Source of the DNA: Actinomyces wuliandei
GTDB lineage: Bacteria > Actinomycetota > Actinomycetes > Actinomycetales > Actinomycetaceae
Assembly: GCF_004010955.1 (NCBI RefSeq)
Contig: NZ_CP025227.1
Span: forward strand, 2,852,001 to 2,916,000
Length of the DNA: 64,000 bases
Reading direction: 5' to 3'
Numbering within the stretch: the stretch's first letter is position 1; each line of letters opens with the position of its first letter. The translations under genes were made by a program, and so were the position numbers. Below the pieces are notes generated by a model, which had not been told where the DNA came from, ran no database searches, and saw only the letters and a program-made list of their open reading frames with translations. Of the stretch, positions 47,082-52,886 are shown piece by piece.

Positions 47082-48068
47082 CTATCGCGTCCGGTCCCGC
47101 GCCCGCCAGTCGCTCAGGCCGACCAGGGCGCCCAGGGCCAGGCAGGACACGGCGACAGTCGCCACCGACCCCGTGGTGTAGGCGGCAAAGAGGTCCCACC
47201 GCGTCAGCGGGGCGGCGCTGCGCGACCACACCCACGCCCCCAGGAGACCGGCACCGACGCAGCCCACGGCTCCTGCGGCCGTGAGCACGGTGTTCCACAG
47301 CCGCTGCGAGCCCCGGGCTGCGGCTGCCCCGCTGCCAGCACCCCCGTCGCTGTGGGCGCTGCCGCGCTGGCCGCCATCATGCTGGCCACCGCGCCCACCC
47401 GGGTCCCGGTCCCCGCCCTGCCATGCTCCACCTGCGACCGCCACCGCGCCCCAGGCGACGGCCACCAGCACGGCCGAGAGAACGTCGGAGGGCCGGTGCC
47501 ACTGGCACACCAGGGTGGAGTACCCCATGGCCGCCGTGGCGGCAGCCCCGGCCCAGGCCGCAGCCGTGCGCCAGCGGGTCCCGGCGAGCAGCACCAGGGC
47601 CACGGCGGCTGAGGCCGCCATGGTCGTGTGCCCCGAGGGCAGGGTGTTGGCGTTGTCCCAGCGCGCGGTGATGTCGTAGTCGGGACGCCACAGGACCCAC
47701 TGCTTGATGACCTGGGTGCTCAGGTTCGCCCCGACCACGGCGACCACGGCCCACAGGGCACGACGGTGGCTGCCACGCAGCCAGCCAACGAGGAGGATCA
47801 CCGCCACCAGCACCACCGCCGCAGGCATGGAGACGGTGGACAGGAGAGCGCGGGCCTGGTCGGAGACGTAGTGGGAGCCGATCTCAGAGCCCTCCAGGGC
47901 GGCCGCCTCCAGACGCTGGCCGGTGTAGGTGCCCACACACAGCCACCACAGCACGAGCACCCCCACCAGGCAGCACGACGCCAGCAGCACGGCCCGCCCG
48001 CGCGCACCTGGCGCTGCGGCACCCGGAGGTGCCGCCCTGCCTGGAGTCGTCCGGGAGCTCATCATCAC
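47082..48068 (-). CDS. PAP2-family membrane phosphatase
   Basis: The 328-residue protein has six predicted membrane segments and the PAP2 triad: KQWVLWRPDYD (motif 1), TLPSGHTTMA (motif 2) and VCQWHRPSDVLSA (motif 3, with the catalytic His). Such enzymes dephosphorylate membrane lipids such as undecaprenyl pyrophosphate or phosphatidic acid. A glycine- and His-rich loop (GDRDPGGRGGQHDGGQRG) follows the third motif. Three possible starts are adjacent (GTG 48068, ATG 48065, ATG 48062). I prefer 48068 because a TACCAT box lies six bases upstream. The C-terminal 70 residues add two more membrane segments. Confidence 0.87.
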   Translation of the reverse strand: MMMSSRTTPGRAAPPGAAAPGARGRAVLLASCCLVGVLVLWWLCVGTYTGQRLEAAALEGSEIGSHYVSDQARALLSTVSMPAAVVLVAVILLVGWLRGSHRRALWAVVAVVGANLSTQVIKQWVLWRPDYDITARWDNANTLPSGHTTMAASAAVALVLLAGTRWRTAAAWAGAAATAAMGYSTLVCQWHRPSDVLSAVLVAVAWGAVAVAGGAWQGGDRDPGGRGGQHDGGQRGSAHSDGGAGSGAAAARGSQRLWNTVLTAAGAVGCVGAGLLGAWVWSRSAAPLTRWDLFAAYTTGSVATVAVSCLALGALVGLSDWRARDRTR

Positions 48069-48074
48069 CGAGCG

Positions 48075-48080
48075 ATGGTA
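48075..48080 (-). promoter_or_regulatory. -10 box, leaderless type, for PAP2 gene
   Basis: TACCAT on the minus strand, then CGCTCG (6 nt) and GTG-ATG-ATG. It fixes the likely start of a leaderless mRNA. Confidence 0.5.
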
Positions 48081-48224
48081 GAGGCAGCGACCGGGGAACC
48101 TCCTGGTAGGTCCCAGCGATTCCACTGCGGAAGTGCTCACGTGGCGCCGCGACACGGCCTCTGTCCCGGGCCTCGTTGCAGGTCCAGGGCACTCCTGACT
48201 GACCGTGCGCTCGCCCTCAGCATC

Positions 48225-49067
48225 ATGCGGCGCTTTGATGAGCCCACGACCTCCGCGTGCGGGCAGGCTCTTCGTCGCATCACGTCGATGGGGAGGTCCC
48301 TGGACCTCGGACCGCTGCCACGCCCCGTCTCGCCGCAGATGACGAGCCAGTTCTGGGCCGAGGCCTCCCCAGAGCTGCGACGGCACGCCCGCGCTCTGGA
48401 GGTCACCGAGTCGTTCTTCTGGACCTTCTGCGACGACTACATCGAGCTGGGCAAGGACCGTGCCAACGACGCCGAGGGCACCCACACGGCTGGTGCGGTG
48501 CGCAGCGCCCGGACCACCCTGGCGCTGGCGGTGGACACCTTCGTGCGGCTGCTCGCCCCGTTCCTGCCCTACGCCACTGAGGAGGTGTGGAGCTGGTACC
48601 GCACCGGGTCCGTGCACCGCTCAGCCTGGCCTGAGGCGGCAGGGCTGCGCCAGGCCGCCCAGGGGGCGGACCCGGCCCTGGTGGCCCAGGCGGGCACCGT
48701 CCTGGCGGCGCTGCGCCGGGTGAAGTCGGAGGCCAGGACCAGCCAGAGGACCCCGATCCTCAGCGCCGTGCTGGAGGTCGCTGCCGACTACCAGCCAGCC
48801 GTGGAGTCGGTGCGCTCCGACCTGGTGGAGGCCGCCAAGGTCACCGGCTCCTTCAGCGTCAAGGTCGCCGGGGCGGTCCAGGGCGCGGACGTAGCCACTG
48901 AGCCTGTTGACAGCGGTACTGCGGCTGCCGACAGCCCGGACACCGGTGCCACGGGCCAGGACGCTGAGGCTGGCAGCACTGAGACTGGTAACAGTCACGG
49001 GGAGGCTCCGGTGCGGGTCCGCTCCGTCGAGCTCGGTGAGGCCCCGGCCCGGCCAGCCCGGTCCTAG
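48225..49067 (+). pseudogene. valS: Orphan C-terminal third of valyl-tRNA synthetase
   Basis: The 280-residue frame reads like the anticodon-binding and tail region of ValRS: ITSMGRSLD, HARALEVTESFFWTFCDDYI, IELGKDRANDAEGTHTAGAV, FVRLLAPFLPYATEEVWSWY, TGSVHRSAWPEA and VLAALRRVKSEARTSQRTP. The editing domain and the Rossmann catalytic core (HIGH, KMSKS) are missing, and upstream bases belong to the divergent PAP2 gene's promoter region. It cannot charge tRNA. It may be a remnant of a duplicated or replaced valS, with the working copy elsewhere, or a retained anticodon-binding module. The frame is intact over its whole length. No ribosome site is seen before the ATG at 48225. Confidence 0.8.
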
Positions 49068-49166
49068 GCTGGCCCAGGCCCAGCACAGCCCGGTGGCGGC
49101 GCGGAACAGGGTTGCCACCGGCGGGAGGCCCGTCGGTCCGGACGGCTTCATCCGGCCTGAGCAGCT

Positions 49167-49227
49167 TGCGAGTCTGGGGTGCGCCAGCCGAGCGCCGGGG
49201 CCTCGCACAACGTACCCCGAGCTCGCA
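49167..49227. repeat. 61-bp inverted-repeat element, left copy
   Basis: Two 17-bp arms (49167-49183 and 49211-49227) of the type TGCGAG-N3-GGGGTACG face each other across exactly 27 bases. Same structure and size as the copy at 51143-51203. It lies between the valS fragment and the toxin genes. Confidence 0.8.
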
Positions 49228-49316
49228 AACCGGGGAGGACAGGGCTGCGTGGGCTGCACGGGCGCTGTCGCGGGCACGCGGTGCGTCGAGGCTCCCGGGA
49301 CGGCTCCGGGACCCCG

Positions 49317-49622
49317 GTGGTGGGCTGGGCCGTCGAGAACCTGGGGGGTGCTGGGGCGGGGCAGGTCTACGGGCTGACCCCCGCCTGCTGTTTCACCGGG
49401 CGGGTCAGCACCAGCCAGGTCGGCATCGAGGACGCCACCGCGCACCTCACTTTTCTGGCCCAGGCCCAGGAGCACACCCTGGTGGAGGACTTCTCCGCCG
49501 CCGCCGCACAGGTCGCCGCCACCATCGCCGCAGGAGGCCAGACCACCAGCCAGGGTGACGGTCCCGGCGGCACCAGTAGCGGCCCTGGTGGCACCGGCCC
49601 CGGTCCGGGGGCGGGGTCGTGA
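49317..49622 (+). CDS. Small ORF upstream of the Ntox15 toxin
   Basis: The frame encodes about 100 residues (VVGWAVENLGGAGAGQVYG, VSTSQVGIEDATAHLTFLAQ, TLVEDFSAAAAQVAATIAAG) ending in a Gly/Pro-rich tail. Its stop overlaps the toxin start as GTGA, which suggests coupled translation or a single ancestral gene split by a frameshift. I do not recognise the domain; the helical part could be a secretion or adaptor segment. The start is uncertain (GTG at 49317 or 49320, no ribosome site). Existence as a separate protein is unproven. Confidence 0.4.
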   Translation: MVGWAVENLGGAGAGQVYGLTPACCFTGRVSTSQVGIEDATAHLTFLAQAQEHTLVEDFSAAAAQVAATIAAGGQTTSQGDGPGGTSSGPGGTGPGPGAGS

Positions 49623-51046
49623 CGCCCAGGCGCTGGCGGGACCGGCTCCGCAGGCGCGGGCGCCCCACCGCCCCTGCTGCTGGTCCCGCCGCGCCTGGCG
49701 GCGGGGCCGGTGGTGGTGGCCCAGCCCCCGGCCACGGCGGCGGTGGCGGGGATGCCTCCCTGGTGGCTGGTGACATGTTCACCCCAGGGCGGGCTGGCGG
49801 GCAGAGCGTGCTGGTGTGGGAGGGGGCCGTGGCGGCACCGGCGAGCCCGCTGGCGTGGCACTCGGCCACGCCGGTGGAGGTGTTCTTCCACACCGGCCAC
49901 CACGACTCCACCCAGGTCCTGGTGGCTGAGTTCACCCGCCAGCTGGACCGACAGCTCTCCGCCCTGTCCCTGCTCAGCGCGGAGCGCCTGCTGGAAGGCA
50001 TCCGCGCCTACCGCACCCAGGGCCGCCAGCCCACCTCCGGTACCACCAAGCGAGCCCGCAAGAACTTCATGAAGGAGGTCATGCACGACCTGCGGCACGT
50101 GCACCAGCTCTCCAAGGAGGATGCCCAGGCCAAGGCGCTGGAGGTGAACCGGGCGCTGGTGGTCCTCCACGAGCCCGACCAGCTCCTGGCGGGGCCAGGC
50201 GGCCCCGCCACCACCGGGCCGCAGCCCGGCTACCCCTCCCTGGGCCACGGGCAGGTCAACTCCTCGGTGGGCTCCCAGAACAGACCCATGGTGGCGGTCC
50301 TGGAGCAGGCCGCCCTGGCCGTCCCACCCGACCAGAGGGCGCAGGTGCGCCTCCTGGTGCGCGCCGTGCTGACCAGCTCCCCCGACCTGGCCCAGGACCT
50401 GCGTGCCGGCCAGGCGCACCTGGAGCCACGCACCCAGGCCCAGAGGAGCGCCACCAGCCCCCGCGCACCACCGTGGACACCCACCTACCTCGCCGCCACC
50501 ATCGCCACCGGGCACGACCCCTGGCACCCACCCGCCCGGGCGCAGGAGCCCGCGCCCTCGGCCACGACCCAGCCCGGGACCGGGCAGCCCCACCAGCCAG
50601 ACCGGCCCGGCCCCGCCACCGGGCAGCCAGGCCCCACCCACACGGGCGCCACCCCGGCCGGACCGGGCCAGCCGGGCCACAAGACCACCCGCGAGGAGGT
50701 CCTGGCCAACATCAAGGCCCGAGTGGCCCAGGCGGCCCGCCAGGGCAACCAGCCCCGGGCCGCACGGGAGGCACCCGCCGGGGCAGACCTCTCCCGAACC
50801 GCCCGTCTGCGCGAGGCCTCCTTCCCCCACTCGCCCACCGCCGCCGTGCGCACGCCACCAGCACAGCCCCAGGCAGGCCCCAGACCGTCCCGGGCGGGCC
50901 AGCCGGGCCACAAGACCACCCCCGAGGAGATCCTGGCCGACATCAAGGCCCGTGTCGCCCAAGCCGCCCAGCAGCCCACCCAGCCCCCCACCCCACACCA
51001 GACCCCCACCCGAAACCACCGACGCAACCGAGGTCTAGGCCGATAA
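49619..51046 (+). CDS. Polymorphic toxin with Ntox15 domain
   Basis: The 475-residue protein opens with a basic, Pro/Gly-rich segment. Residues about 75-240 match Ntox15: VLVAEFTRQLDRQLSALSLL, then RAYRTQGR, then ALEVNRALVVLHEPDQLLAG with the catalytic HxxD (His184, Asp187), and VNSSVGSQNRPMVAVLEQAA, the closing motif. Ntox15 is the nuclease domain of the Agrobacterium Tde effectors, where the HxxD motif is needed for DNA cleavage. The C-terminal 200 residues are Pro-rich and contain two near-identical modules GQPGHKTT(R/P)EE(V/I)LA with IKARVAQAA. No immunity gene is recognisable between this gene and the convergent methyltransferase. Family confident; secretion route unknown. Confidence 0.75.
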   Translation: MTPRRWRDRLRRRGRPTAPAAGPAAPGGGAGGGGPAPGHGGGGGDASLVAGDMFTPGRAGGQSVLVWEGAVAAPASPLAWHSATPVEVFFHTGHHDSTQVLVAEFTRQLDRQLSALSLLSAERLLEGIRAYRTQGRQPTSGTTKRARKNFMKEVMHDLRHVHQLSKEDAQAKALEVNRALVVLHEPDQLLAGPGGPATTGPQPGYPSLGHGQVNSSVGSQNRPMVAVLEQAALAVPPDQRAQVRLLVRAVLTSSPDLAQDLRAGQAHLEPRTQAQRSATSPRAPPWTPTYLAATIATGHDPWHPPARAQEPAPSATTQPGTGQPHQPDRPGPATGQPGPTHTGATPAGPGQPGHKTTREEVLANIKARVAQAARQGNQPRAAREAPAGADLSRTARLREASFPHSPTAAVRTPPAQPQAGPRPSRAGQPGHKTTPEEILADIKARVAQAAQQPTQPPTPHQTPTRNHRRNRGLGR

Positions 51047-51142
51047 GCCCGAACCCGCACCGGTACGTGGGCCGGAAACCGCACGCAGCAGGCCGGGACC
51101 CGCCAGCGACAGACCAGCCCCACCCCCGACCCGTCAGCGATA

Positions 51143-51203
51143 TGCGAGTCCGGGGTACGCTATGCGGCCACCCGGCCCTCCCAGGACGTACCCCAACCTC
51201 GCA
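51143..51203. repeat. 61-bp inverted-repeat element, right copy
   Basis: Arms 51143-51159 (TGCGAGTCCGGGGTACG) and 51187-51203 are inverted copies with three mismatches, separated by 27 bases. Same orientation and spacing as the left copy, 1976 bp away. It lies between the convergent toxin and methyltransferase genes. Confidence 0.8.
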
Positions 51204-51263
51204 AACCGCCAGAGGGAGAAGCCGGAACGCGAAGGGTCACAGCCTGGACCATGCCCCACCCCC

Positions 51264-52886
51264 TCACCCAAAGGTCAGGAACCCGCAGCGGGCCAGCTCG
51301 CGCACGCCCGCCACGAGCTCGGCACGCACTGCGACGGCGTCGGCGGCCGTGCCAGCCCCGGTCAGGACCGCCACCGCCTGCGCTACCTGCGCCACGCTCA
51401 GCTCGCCGTCGGCGGCCCCTGCCAGGGCGGCGACCGCTGTGCTCACCGGGACGGCACGCCCCAAGCCCCCACCCTGCCTCAGCATGATGACCGAGGGCTC
51501 TGCGGCGCCTGGCACCAGGTGGCGCTCCTCGGTGACGTCGGCAGCCAGCACGGGGTGCAGGGTGGCGACAGCGTCGTCGTCCAGGCCAGCCAGCAGGTCC
51601 TGGGCCTCCAGCACCTGGGCGACGTGCGGCCCCAGGGGAGCCTCCACTGCCGTGGTGACCTCCTCCAGCACCCGCCAGGGCCTGCGCGGTGCCTGCGGGC
51701 GGTGGAGGACCAGGTAGCCGAAGCCGACCCCCTCCACCCCCCGCTCCTCGAAGTCCCCGACCCACGCCCCGACGGCGGCGTCAAAGGCCTCCGGTGCCCG
51801 CTCGGGGGCCACCCCGCCGTCACGCAGCCACATGGCCGCGTAGGACACCGGGTCCTGCTGCTCCCGCTCGACGACCCAGGCGTCGGCCTCCTCCGGCAGC
51901 CAGTCGGCGACGTCCCGGCGCCAGTCCCTCCCCTGGTGGTGCTCCCAGTTCCCCAGCAGCACGGCGGTGCCCCCCGCCTGCAGGTGGGCACCCAGGCCCG
52001 CCACGAGCCCAGGCAGGACGTCCTCGCCGGCGTCGCGGTACTCCATGAGCGCCAGCCCCGCCTCACGGACCGCAGCAGGCGTCAGGACAAACGGGGGGTT
52101 GGAGACCACGAGGTCGAAGCGACGCCCTGCCACCGGCTCCAGCAGGGAGCCTGCCGCCAGCTCCACCCGCTCCTCCTGACCGGCGAGAGCGACGTTGAAG
52201 GCGGTGAAGTCCAGTGCCCGGCGCGAGACGTCCGTCGCAGTCACGTGCTCGGCGTGGCGCAGGAGGTAGAGCGTTTGGATCCCGCAGCCGCACCCCAGGT
52301 CCAGGGCGGTACCCACCGGTGTGCGCGGGACCAGGCCCGCCAAGGTCAGTCCCGCCCCGCCGATGCCCAGGACGTGGCCGGGTGCCAGCTCACGGCCGGT
52401 GACCATCTCACCCAGGTCGGAGGCCACCCACCAGCGCACCTGCCCGGTGTCGTCACGGGCCTCGTGGGGACGCAGGTCCACCAGGGCACGGACCCGGCCA
52501 TTGGTGTCAGGCGGGCTGACCAGGCCGGTAGCGGCCGCACCGCGGGTACGGGTGCGGCTCAGGACGTGGTCGAGCTCGGCGGCCGACACCGGCTCACCAA
52601 GCATGAACAAGGCAGTCAGGACGGCCGGGGGCGAGGGCCTCGCGCCTGCGGCCCGGTCCTCGTCCATGGCGGCCCGCAGCGCCCGCAGGGCGGGGAGGCG
52701 GACCTCTCGGCGCAGGGCGGCGTCACCCACCTCTCCCAGCAGGTGGGCGACGGCGTCCACGCCCCAGCCACTGGCCTCCAGGTCCTTGCGCAGCCTGAGG
52801 GCCTGCTCGGCGGTGGCACGCGGCGCAGGGGGCACCGCCGCCCCGGGGTCAGCGGAGGGGGCGGGCTGCGGGAGCGCGACGTTCAT
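51264..52886 (-). CDS. Class I SAM-dependent methyltransferase
   Basis: The 540-residue protein has an N-terminal helical domain (LRLRKDLEASGWGVDAVAHL, typical of the DUF7059 region of actinobacterial methyltransferases) and then a Rossmann core with GTALDLGCGCGIQTLYLLRH (SAM site), VTATDVSRRALDFTAFNVAL and the catalytic DLVVSNPPFVLTP. The NPPF motif indicates methylation of an amino group on adenine, guanine or glutamine (PrmC/RsmC-like). A C-terminal helical domain of about 170 residues follows. The substrate is unknown. The ATG at 52886 lies six bases after a TACCGT box. Codons upstream in frame have no coding character. Confidence 0.87.
   Translation of the reverse strand: MNVALPQPAPSADPGAAVPPAPRATAEQALRLRKDLEASGWGVDAVAHLLGEVGDAALRREVRLPALRALRAAMDEDRAAGARPSPPAVLTALFMLGEPVSAAELDHVLSRTRTRGAAATGLVSPPDTNGRVRALVDLRPHEARDDTGQVRWWVASDLGEMVTGRELAPGHVLGIGGAGLTLAGLVPRTPVGTALDLGCGCGIQTLYLLRHAEHVTATDVSRRALDFTAFNVALAGQEERVELAAGSLLEPVAGRRFDLVVSNPPFVLTPAAVREAGLALMEYRDAGEDVLPGLVAGLGAHLQAGGTAVLLGNWEHHQGRDWRRDVADWLPEEADAWVVEREQQDPVSYAAMWLRDGGVAPERAPEAFDAAVGAWVGDFEERGVEGVGFGYLVLHRPQAPRRPWRVLEEVTTAVEAPLGPHVAQVLEAQDLLAGLDDDAVATLHPVLAADVTEERHLVPGAAEPSVIMLRQGGGLGRAVPVSTAVAALAGAADGELSVAQVAQAVAVLTGAGTAADAVAVRAELVAGVRELARCGFLTFG

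Follow-up and report, generated by a model that had tools for sequence, protein, structure and literature searches.

Tde/Tdi systems and the locus in Actinomyces wuliandei

Ntox15 nucleases and their Tdi immunity proteins are best known from bacteria with a type VI secretion system (T6SS). In Agrobacterium tumefaciens, the Tde1/Tdi1 and Tde2/Tdi2 pairs comprise T6SS effectors whose DNase activity depends on the HxxD motif of the Ntox15 (toxin_43) domain, and tde-tdi pairs were also recorded in T6SS-negative Firmicutes and Actinobacteria (PMC4096383). In Bacteroidales, Tde1 is a Mg-dependent DNase, fused to Hcp and encoded in a T6SS locus, while its Tdi penetrates the Ntox15 core, disrupting the HxxD site (PDB 8fzy), and orphan Tdi protect across pairs (PMC10470768). 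Fusions of Ntox15 to WXG100 are described from mycobacterial prophages; the toxin of the Mycobacterium MabR prophage has an N-terminal WXG100 domain, a small WXG100 partner gene and a GAD-like/DUF1851 immunity gene located downstream (PMC9434293). Polymorphic toxin systems diversify their toxin modules by recombination with stand-alone cassettes (PMC3482391). Here, an Ntox15 toxin gene and the small open reading frame (ORF) that overlaps its start were analyzed in a 64,000-nt stretch of Actinomyces wuliandei contig NZ_CP025227.1 (hereafter the window; coordinates are positions within it). The pair is probably of Tde/Tdi type, immunity-first with a 4-nt overlap, and part of a multi-copy family that spreads among chromosomal sites and exchanges alleles.

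The Actinomyces toxin shares with Agrobacterium Tde the Ntox15 domain with HxxD, as the sole recognized domain, like the proteins termed 'class 1' in that report; however, the Agrobacterium proteins are T6SS DNase effectors, whereas the Actinomyces pairs are immunity-first and form a dispersed multi-site family, none being noted for Agrobacterium in the available text (PMC4096383). In common with the Bacteroidales system are an Ntox15 nuclease with a Tdi partner that would neutralize it and the occurrence of orphan immunity genes, although the Actinomyces toxin is bare, unlike the Hcp-fused Tde1 (PMC10470768). The MabR toxin (PMC9434293) is likewise an actinobacterial Ntox15 protein with a GAD-like/DUF1851 immunity protein, but the Actinomyces toxin lacks WXG100 and the gene order is reversed, with the immunity gene upstream in 38/41 cases. 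Diversification of toxin modules by recombination is a feature shared with polymorphic toxin systems (PMC3482391), but the Actinomyces cassettes lie far apart on the chromosome, and no full-length delivery toxin was seen alongside them.

Both protein families, and their occurrence in Gram-positive bacteria, are already known. A literature search, with subscription literature largely outside its reach, retrieved no published account of scattered, exchanging, immunity-first Ntox15 pairs; for Actinomyces, it likewise yielded nothing relevant about palindromes or dispersed toxin-immunity cassettes. In type II toxin-antitoxin operons the antitoxin gene also comes first, with a short overlap; their protein families are unrelated to the Actinomyces pair, and no evidence of an unstable antitoxin was found here. 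With its many bare, immunity-first pairs, this Gram-positive lineage offers a natural system for three questions: by what means such pairs relocate when they have no evident transposase, whether a single immunity protein can protect against many toxin alleles, and which role bare Ntox15 proteins have in bacteria without a visible export route. As the contents of individual sites differ between two sister genomes, the lineage is also useful for studying the spread of such pairs.

An Ntox15 toxin gene overlapping a truncated immunity gene

The features of the pair are the following:
49179..49622, plus strand: ORF with a 5'-truncated Tdi-type immunity gene, GTGA overlap with the toxin gene (protein match; sub-threshold Tdi1_C)
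49299..49619, plus strand: homology to the immunity family, residues 169-272 (131.7 bits, 73% identity)
49619..51046, plus strand: Ntox15 (Tde-type) toxin gene, 475 aa (ORF; Pfam PF15604, E = 1.3e-12; profile match to PDB 8fzz, E = 3.7e-9)
49922..50362, plus strand: Ntox15 domain, residues 102-248 (Pfam)
50168..50179, plus strand: HxxD motif (H184, D187), invariant in 36/36 aligned rows
50637..50779, plus strand: tail repeat copy 1 (GQPGHKTT...IKARVAQAA)
50868..51010, plus strand: tail repeat copy 2, 78% identical to copy 1

The 475-residue product is a true Ntox15 protein with an HxxD motif. The hidden Markov model (HMM) search that the original prediction had proposed as its check gave a significant match to PF15604 (48.4 bits, E = 1.3e-12, residues 102-248; curated cut-off 22.5), so that the refuting outcome named there, absence of such a match, did not occur, and a profile of the toxin family matched solved Ntox15 chains in the PDB (8fzz, E = 3.7e-9; 8g0k and 8fzy, E = 0.005), in agreement with the earlier Tde-type reading. 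His184 and Asp187, named in that prediction as the HxxD residues, showed no variation in an alignment of 36 rows, composed of the window protein and 35 hand-picked rows out of 58 homologue matches; the 23 omitted include a shorter version of the window protein (P0001) and an apparent out-of-frame translation of a broken copy (P0058). The VNSSVGSQ region, also pointed out earlier, was conserved in the same alignment. The coordinates bear out the length of 475 residues and the GTG start, which forms a GTGA overlap with the stop codon of ORF 49179-49622, as well as the two-copy tail module, whose 143-nt copies are 78% identical. The original prediction had further stressed the occurrence of Ntox15 in an actinobacterium; the domain is indeed present, but this is not surprising per se, given the Gram-positive cases reported (PMC4096383, PMC9434293).

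By homology to Tde, the window toxin would be expected to act as an HxxD- and Mg-dependent DNase. Its predicted structure was a weak model, and the comparison of this model with the PDB did not rise above background. The ratio of non-synonymous to synonymous substitution rates (dN/dS) was 0.45-0.56 relative to three other species, suggesting constraint on the toxin, and 0.45-1.06 relative to copies in its own genome and in the sister genome G018. Within the Pro-rich tail (residues 280-475), inspection by eye showed short motifs recurring across species (SPRAPPWTP, LR.ASFPHP and a C-terminal GL.R), which possibly represent a signal or binding site. No family was found in NCBIfam for the toxin, nor in PADLOC for the toxin or the immunity protein. 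Carriage of the pair by a phage or plasmid was rejected, as the toxin had no match in either the phage or the plasmid collection.

The best-preserved relative in the same genome lies at 1,916 kb (1916k; further loci are named likewise), directly behind a full-length valS, and encodes a 272-residue immunity protein and a 441-residue toxin with a 4-nt overlap. This immunity protein matched the GAD-like family PF08887 (E = 5.4e-16, 58.9 bits; cut-off 25) and, below the cut-off of 27.4, Tdi1_C (DUF1851; E = 6.5e-5, 23.2 bits); precomputed Pfam annotations have both domains in many homologues. It also weakly matched the Agrobacterium immunity protein Atu4351, of known crystal structure (PDB 6itw, E = 0.0045). 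When used as query in the genus search, it gave a single match in the window, covering only residues 169-272 (131.7 bits, 73% identity), which identifies the window ORF as a Tdi-type immunity gene without its first two thirds. The original prediction, which saw no immunity gene at this locus, is therefore not upheld: the small upstream ORF contains the C-terminal part of the Tdi-type family of the genus. The ORF itself matched Tdi1_C with E = 0.002-0.0035, under the curated cut-off, and had no GAD-like match in Pfam, so that the two-domain composition of the Tdi family was not found in it. DNA homology to the other copies begins near 49316, and a palindromic repeat (49164-49230) directly precedes the break. 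The window immunity gene is thus present but 5'-truncated, its N-terminal GAD-like domain being gone. Among the three alternatives offered earlier (the small ORF as immunity gene, an immunity gene elsewhere, or a silent or unusually secreted toxin), the first came closest in that the ORF is an immunity homologue, yet one without the GAD-like N-terminal domain. In NCBIfam, the small ORF gave only a match to TaeI at chance level.

A downstream immunity gene was also rejected. Only 217 nt separate the toxin stop (51046) from the end of the convergent methyltransferase gene (51264), and the listed plus-strand ORFs reaching this gap either share sequence with the toxin gene in a different frame or lie antisense to the methyltransferase gene, in keeping with the earlier statement that no frame long enough for a Tdi protein exists there. 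The two long ORFs among those reaching the gap had no Pfam match.

Immunity-first pairs across the genus

A survey of Actinomyces genomes for a linked immunity gene, likewise suggested in the original prediction, found Ntox15 in 12/49 genomes and the immunity family in 15/49. An immunity match was located upstream, on the same strand and within 1.5 kb, at 38 of the 41 Ntox15 hits (one of the 41 falling below the family cut-off); a single one of these 38 also had an immunity match downstream. The three remaining hits were those of G016 (near the contig start), G056 and the 1559k locus of the window's own genome, at which only DNA homology to the last part of the immunity gene was detected. Conversely, immunity matches without a nearby toxin also occurred, including those at 1231, 1746 and 2475 kb of the own genome, and in three genomes without any Ntox15 hit (G055, G017 and G051).

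Two further arrangements were observed. In G007 (G007:C1:1065960-1069367), four consecutive immunity matches precede one Ntox15 hit. In G014 (L055, G014:C3:165000-175000), the neighbors of the Ntox15 pair appeared, by eye and without HMM, to be Zeta-toxin-like and TraG/VirD4-like, which suggests that this pair is located on a conjugative element.

Dispersal over the chromosome and allele exchange

The Ntox15/immunity pairs of this lineage have spread widely over the chromosome. The own chromosome carries 11 Ntox15 hits, ten of the close family and a divergent one at 800 kb, and the sister genome G018 carries eight, six of which (6/8) have flanks in common with own loci. The neighbors of the Ntox15 loci were mostly housekeeping-like (reading by eye). 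Six sites were compared with other genomes, five of them own loci and the sixth occupied in G018 only; 2817k and G018 2606k were left out. Three modules were absent from the corresponding site of G018: 2250k (84 nt vs. 2988 nt), 581k (30 vs. 2755 nt; 77 vs. 2802 in local alignment) and 353k (59 nt vs. 3274 nt). The 1276k module was common to both sister genomes, with relatives such as G040 and G024 lacking it (~1 kb vs. 3.6 kb), while the G018-only locus at 1780k corresponds in the own genome to immunity pieces without toxin. Three junctions that were inspected showed no clear target duplication and no common ends. Ten of the 11 own hits share one assembly strand, a bias that may be due to chance.

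Pairs also exchange alleles among these sites. At shared sites the longer flanking matches were 91-96% identical (one 121-nt piece, 82%), whereas in the five close-family pairs identity was only 73-88% for the toxin cores and, in four of the five, 83-86% for the immunity regions, the fifth (1559k) having none left. No same-place pair was mutually nearest. Approximately unbiased (AU) tests rejected a same-place clade in 3/3 cases for the toxin (p = 0.0008, 0.0006 and 0.016) and in 3/4 for the immunity gene (p = 0.015, 1e-8 and 0.008; 0.060 in the remaining case), the trees presupposing an absence of within-gene mosaicism that is doubtful for these genes. Toxin trees excluded the partial 534k and G018 1731k sequences and the divergent 800k/2185k pair; immunity trees excluded the 1559k, 2817k and window rows, which were absent or too short. 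Moreover, five own toxins formed one clade (100/100) with no G018 row inside. The rejection of same-place grouping, together with this own-only clade, indicates movement of alleles from one site to another in the same genome.

Origin of the window copy

Two segments bear on the placement of the window copy:
48371..49083, plus strand: valS 3' end, 713 nt with 99% identity to the complete valS beside the 1916k module (DNA comparison)
48391..51275, no strand: segment for which G018 has 1363 nt, comprising the remainder of an AbiLi-like gene plus an AbiLii-like partner

The Anticodon_1 domain was recognized in ORF 47628-49067 (Pfam). Despite the 99% identity of the valS piece, the window toxin is only ~81% identical to the toxin behind the real valS. 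At this site (L073 2383-4368) G018 carries an AAA ATPase gene matching PADLOC AbiLi (3.3e-81) and a small partner matching AbiLii over part of the profile (6.6e-11); a 210-nt remnant of the ATPase gene, 95% identical, persists in the window at 48181-48390. The simplest account, in which the order of events is inferred, is that a segment composed of the valS end and the module was copied in, replacing most of a defence gene pair. At the 1916k locus (L041), an immunity-gene fragment was observed behind the full valS, joined at a short shared sequence.

Proposed function and alternative explanations

By analogy with the described Tde/Tdi systems, the pair likely encodes an antibacterial DNase neutralized by Tdi. 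As the product of the first gene, Tdi would be made first, bind the Ntox15 core and distort the HxxD site, as in Bacteroidales Tdi1, leaving the nuclease inactive in its owner; DNA would be cleaved in any cell that the toxin reached and that had no matching Tdi. The toxin frame of the window copy is open and its Tdi has lost the GAD-like domain; protection in trans by the full-length 1916k and 353k paralogues would then be most likely, or the copy may be silent.

Regarding delivery, the toxin could be an exported type VII (ESX) effector whose Pro-rich tail, with its conserved short motifs, would serve as a non-classical signal. The genome has an EccC-like FtsK/SpoIIIE protein at 282-286 kb and WXG100 genes, and Ntox15 is fused to WXG100 in mycobacterial prophages (PMC9434293). 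Upstream of the 2817k module there is a WXG100-like gene (L015 3826-4122; Pfam E = 0.001, below cut-off), followed by what appears, by eye, to be a relic of a toxin C-terminus (L015 4210-4455). Yet Pfam detected no trafficking, WXG100 or LXG domain in the window and 1916k toxins, no type VII signal was recognized by eye, and all four WXG100 hits of the own genome lie >60 kb from any of the 11 Ntox15 hits (T6SS genes were not searched for). Export by this route is regarded as unlikely.

An equally unlikely explanation is that the family is decaying without a present function, the window copy being a silent pseudogene pair left by duplications. The truncated window immunity gene agrees with it, as do the dN/dS values near 1 in some pairs and the state of several copies. 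A single frame covers both core and tail in only five of the ten own close-family toxins (window, 353k, 1276k, 1916k and 2250k), and even among these the first 54 residues lie in another frame in 2250k and have no match in 353k. The 534k toxin has an internal deletion, and in 581k, 1559k, 2041k and 2817k the frame is lost or cut behind or late in the core. Near-full-length open immunity frames are found at 1916k and 353k, and at 2250k without the first part. Against decay stand the window toxin, open over 475 codons with its invariant residues retained, the dN/dS of ~0.5 relative to other species, and the intact pair at 1916k. In own 581k, own 1559k and G018 1055k (L039, L043 and L048), the frame breaks at one and the same short homopolymeric tract, located late in the Ntox15 core or behind it; slippage is a possible cause.

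Slightly less probable is that the pairs are intracellular, addiction-like selfish elements resembling toxin-antitoxin systems, without secretion, which would persist and spread because loss of Tdi kills the cell. In favor of this are the immunity-first order with 4-nt overlap, the lack of a detected trafficking domain in the window and 1916k toxins, the absence of WXG100 hits within 60 kb of the 11 loci, and the dispersal to sites devoid of the module in the sister genome (2250k, 581k and 353k). The toxin-less immunity genes (own 1231k, 1746k and 2475k; G055, G017 and G051) fit a defence against others better, however, and several toxin copies have decayed; elsewhere, Tde proteins are secreted effectors (PMC4096383, PMC10470768). 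Tdi is not known to be unstable, which also counts against addiction. A further reading, which we consider improbable, is that in Actinomyces the pair has left the effector lifestyle and become bare, immunity-first, mobile and addiction-like, reaching many sites on the chromosome and recombining freely, with any full-length Tdi in the cell guarding the whole toxin set and the palindrome perhaps aiding its spread in the window's species.

Palindromic repeats and insertion sequence pieces

The Tde/Tdi-type pair of the window is flanked by two copies of a repeat:
49164..49230, no strand: 67-nt palindromic repeat, left
51140..51206, no strand: 67-nt palindromic repeat, right

The end points of the earlier interval (49167 and 51203) fall inside these two copies, which the original prediction did not mention. 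The repeat is an imperfect palindrome with 20-nt arms at a constant 47-nt offset and was encountered at 13 sites in the own genome. An arm-pattern search allowing <=2 mismatches returned 20 hits in 14 own places (reversed control, 0), and 23 other genomes, of which 15 belong to the genus and none is G018, gave no hit at <=1 mismatch. Of the 14 places, eight are no more than 2 kb away from an Ntox15 domain, corresponding to 6/11 modules, compared with at most four in 100,000 random placements. At 353k both palindromes lie inside the insert, near its two ends. A complete palindrome was absent from the 118 kb of G018 loci, including its eight Ntox15 loci, where a lone arm occurred near 1731k; elsewhere in G018 there was one palindrome-related stretch (80-83%). 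A general role of the palindrome in moving the pairs was rejected, given that no complete copy occurs at the examined G018 loci. A terminator or known RNA was likewise discarded, as Rfam gave no match over 48300-51500 and the 192k palindrome lies between divergent genes (gene reading by eye).

Only two modules, 581k and 2250k, have pieces of an IS481-like insertion sequence (IS) directly upstream, and these pieces are missing together with the modules in G018; full copies with transposase ORFs exist in other genomes, the family name being assigned by reading and not by HMM. A single transposon with IS481-like ends was rejected, since such pieces lie directly beside no further module among the other examined loci. 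The idea of a single transposable element, either IS481-like or ended by the 67-nt palindrome, that carries the modules as cargo is a poor prospect: the end pieces at 581k and 2250k, the palindromes near both 353k insert ends and the clustering of palindromes around Ntox15 domains speak for it, but IS pieces adjoin 2/11 own loci and palindromes 6/11, complete palindromes are lacking in the G018 loci, three junctions show neither common ends nor clear target duplications, and the valS piece accompanying the window copy indicates ordinary recombination. No single mobile element explains all loci.

Near the divergent 800k module and its counterpart in G018 there was a related IS element, at a distance of 1.7-3.1 kb (2.4-3.1 kb for 800k). 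Regarding the folding of the palindrome as single-stranded DNA, the left window copy was ordinary (z = -1.4), while the right window copy reached z = -3.4 and the 302k copy z = -10.2.

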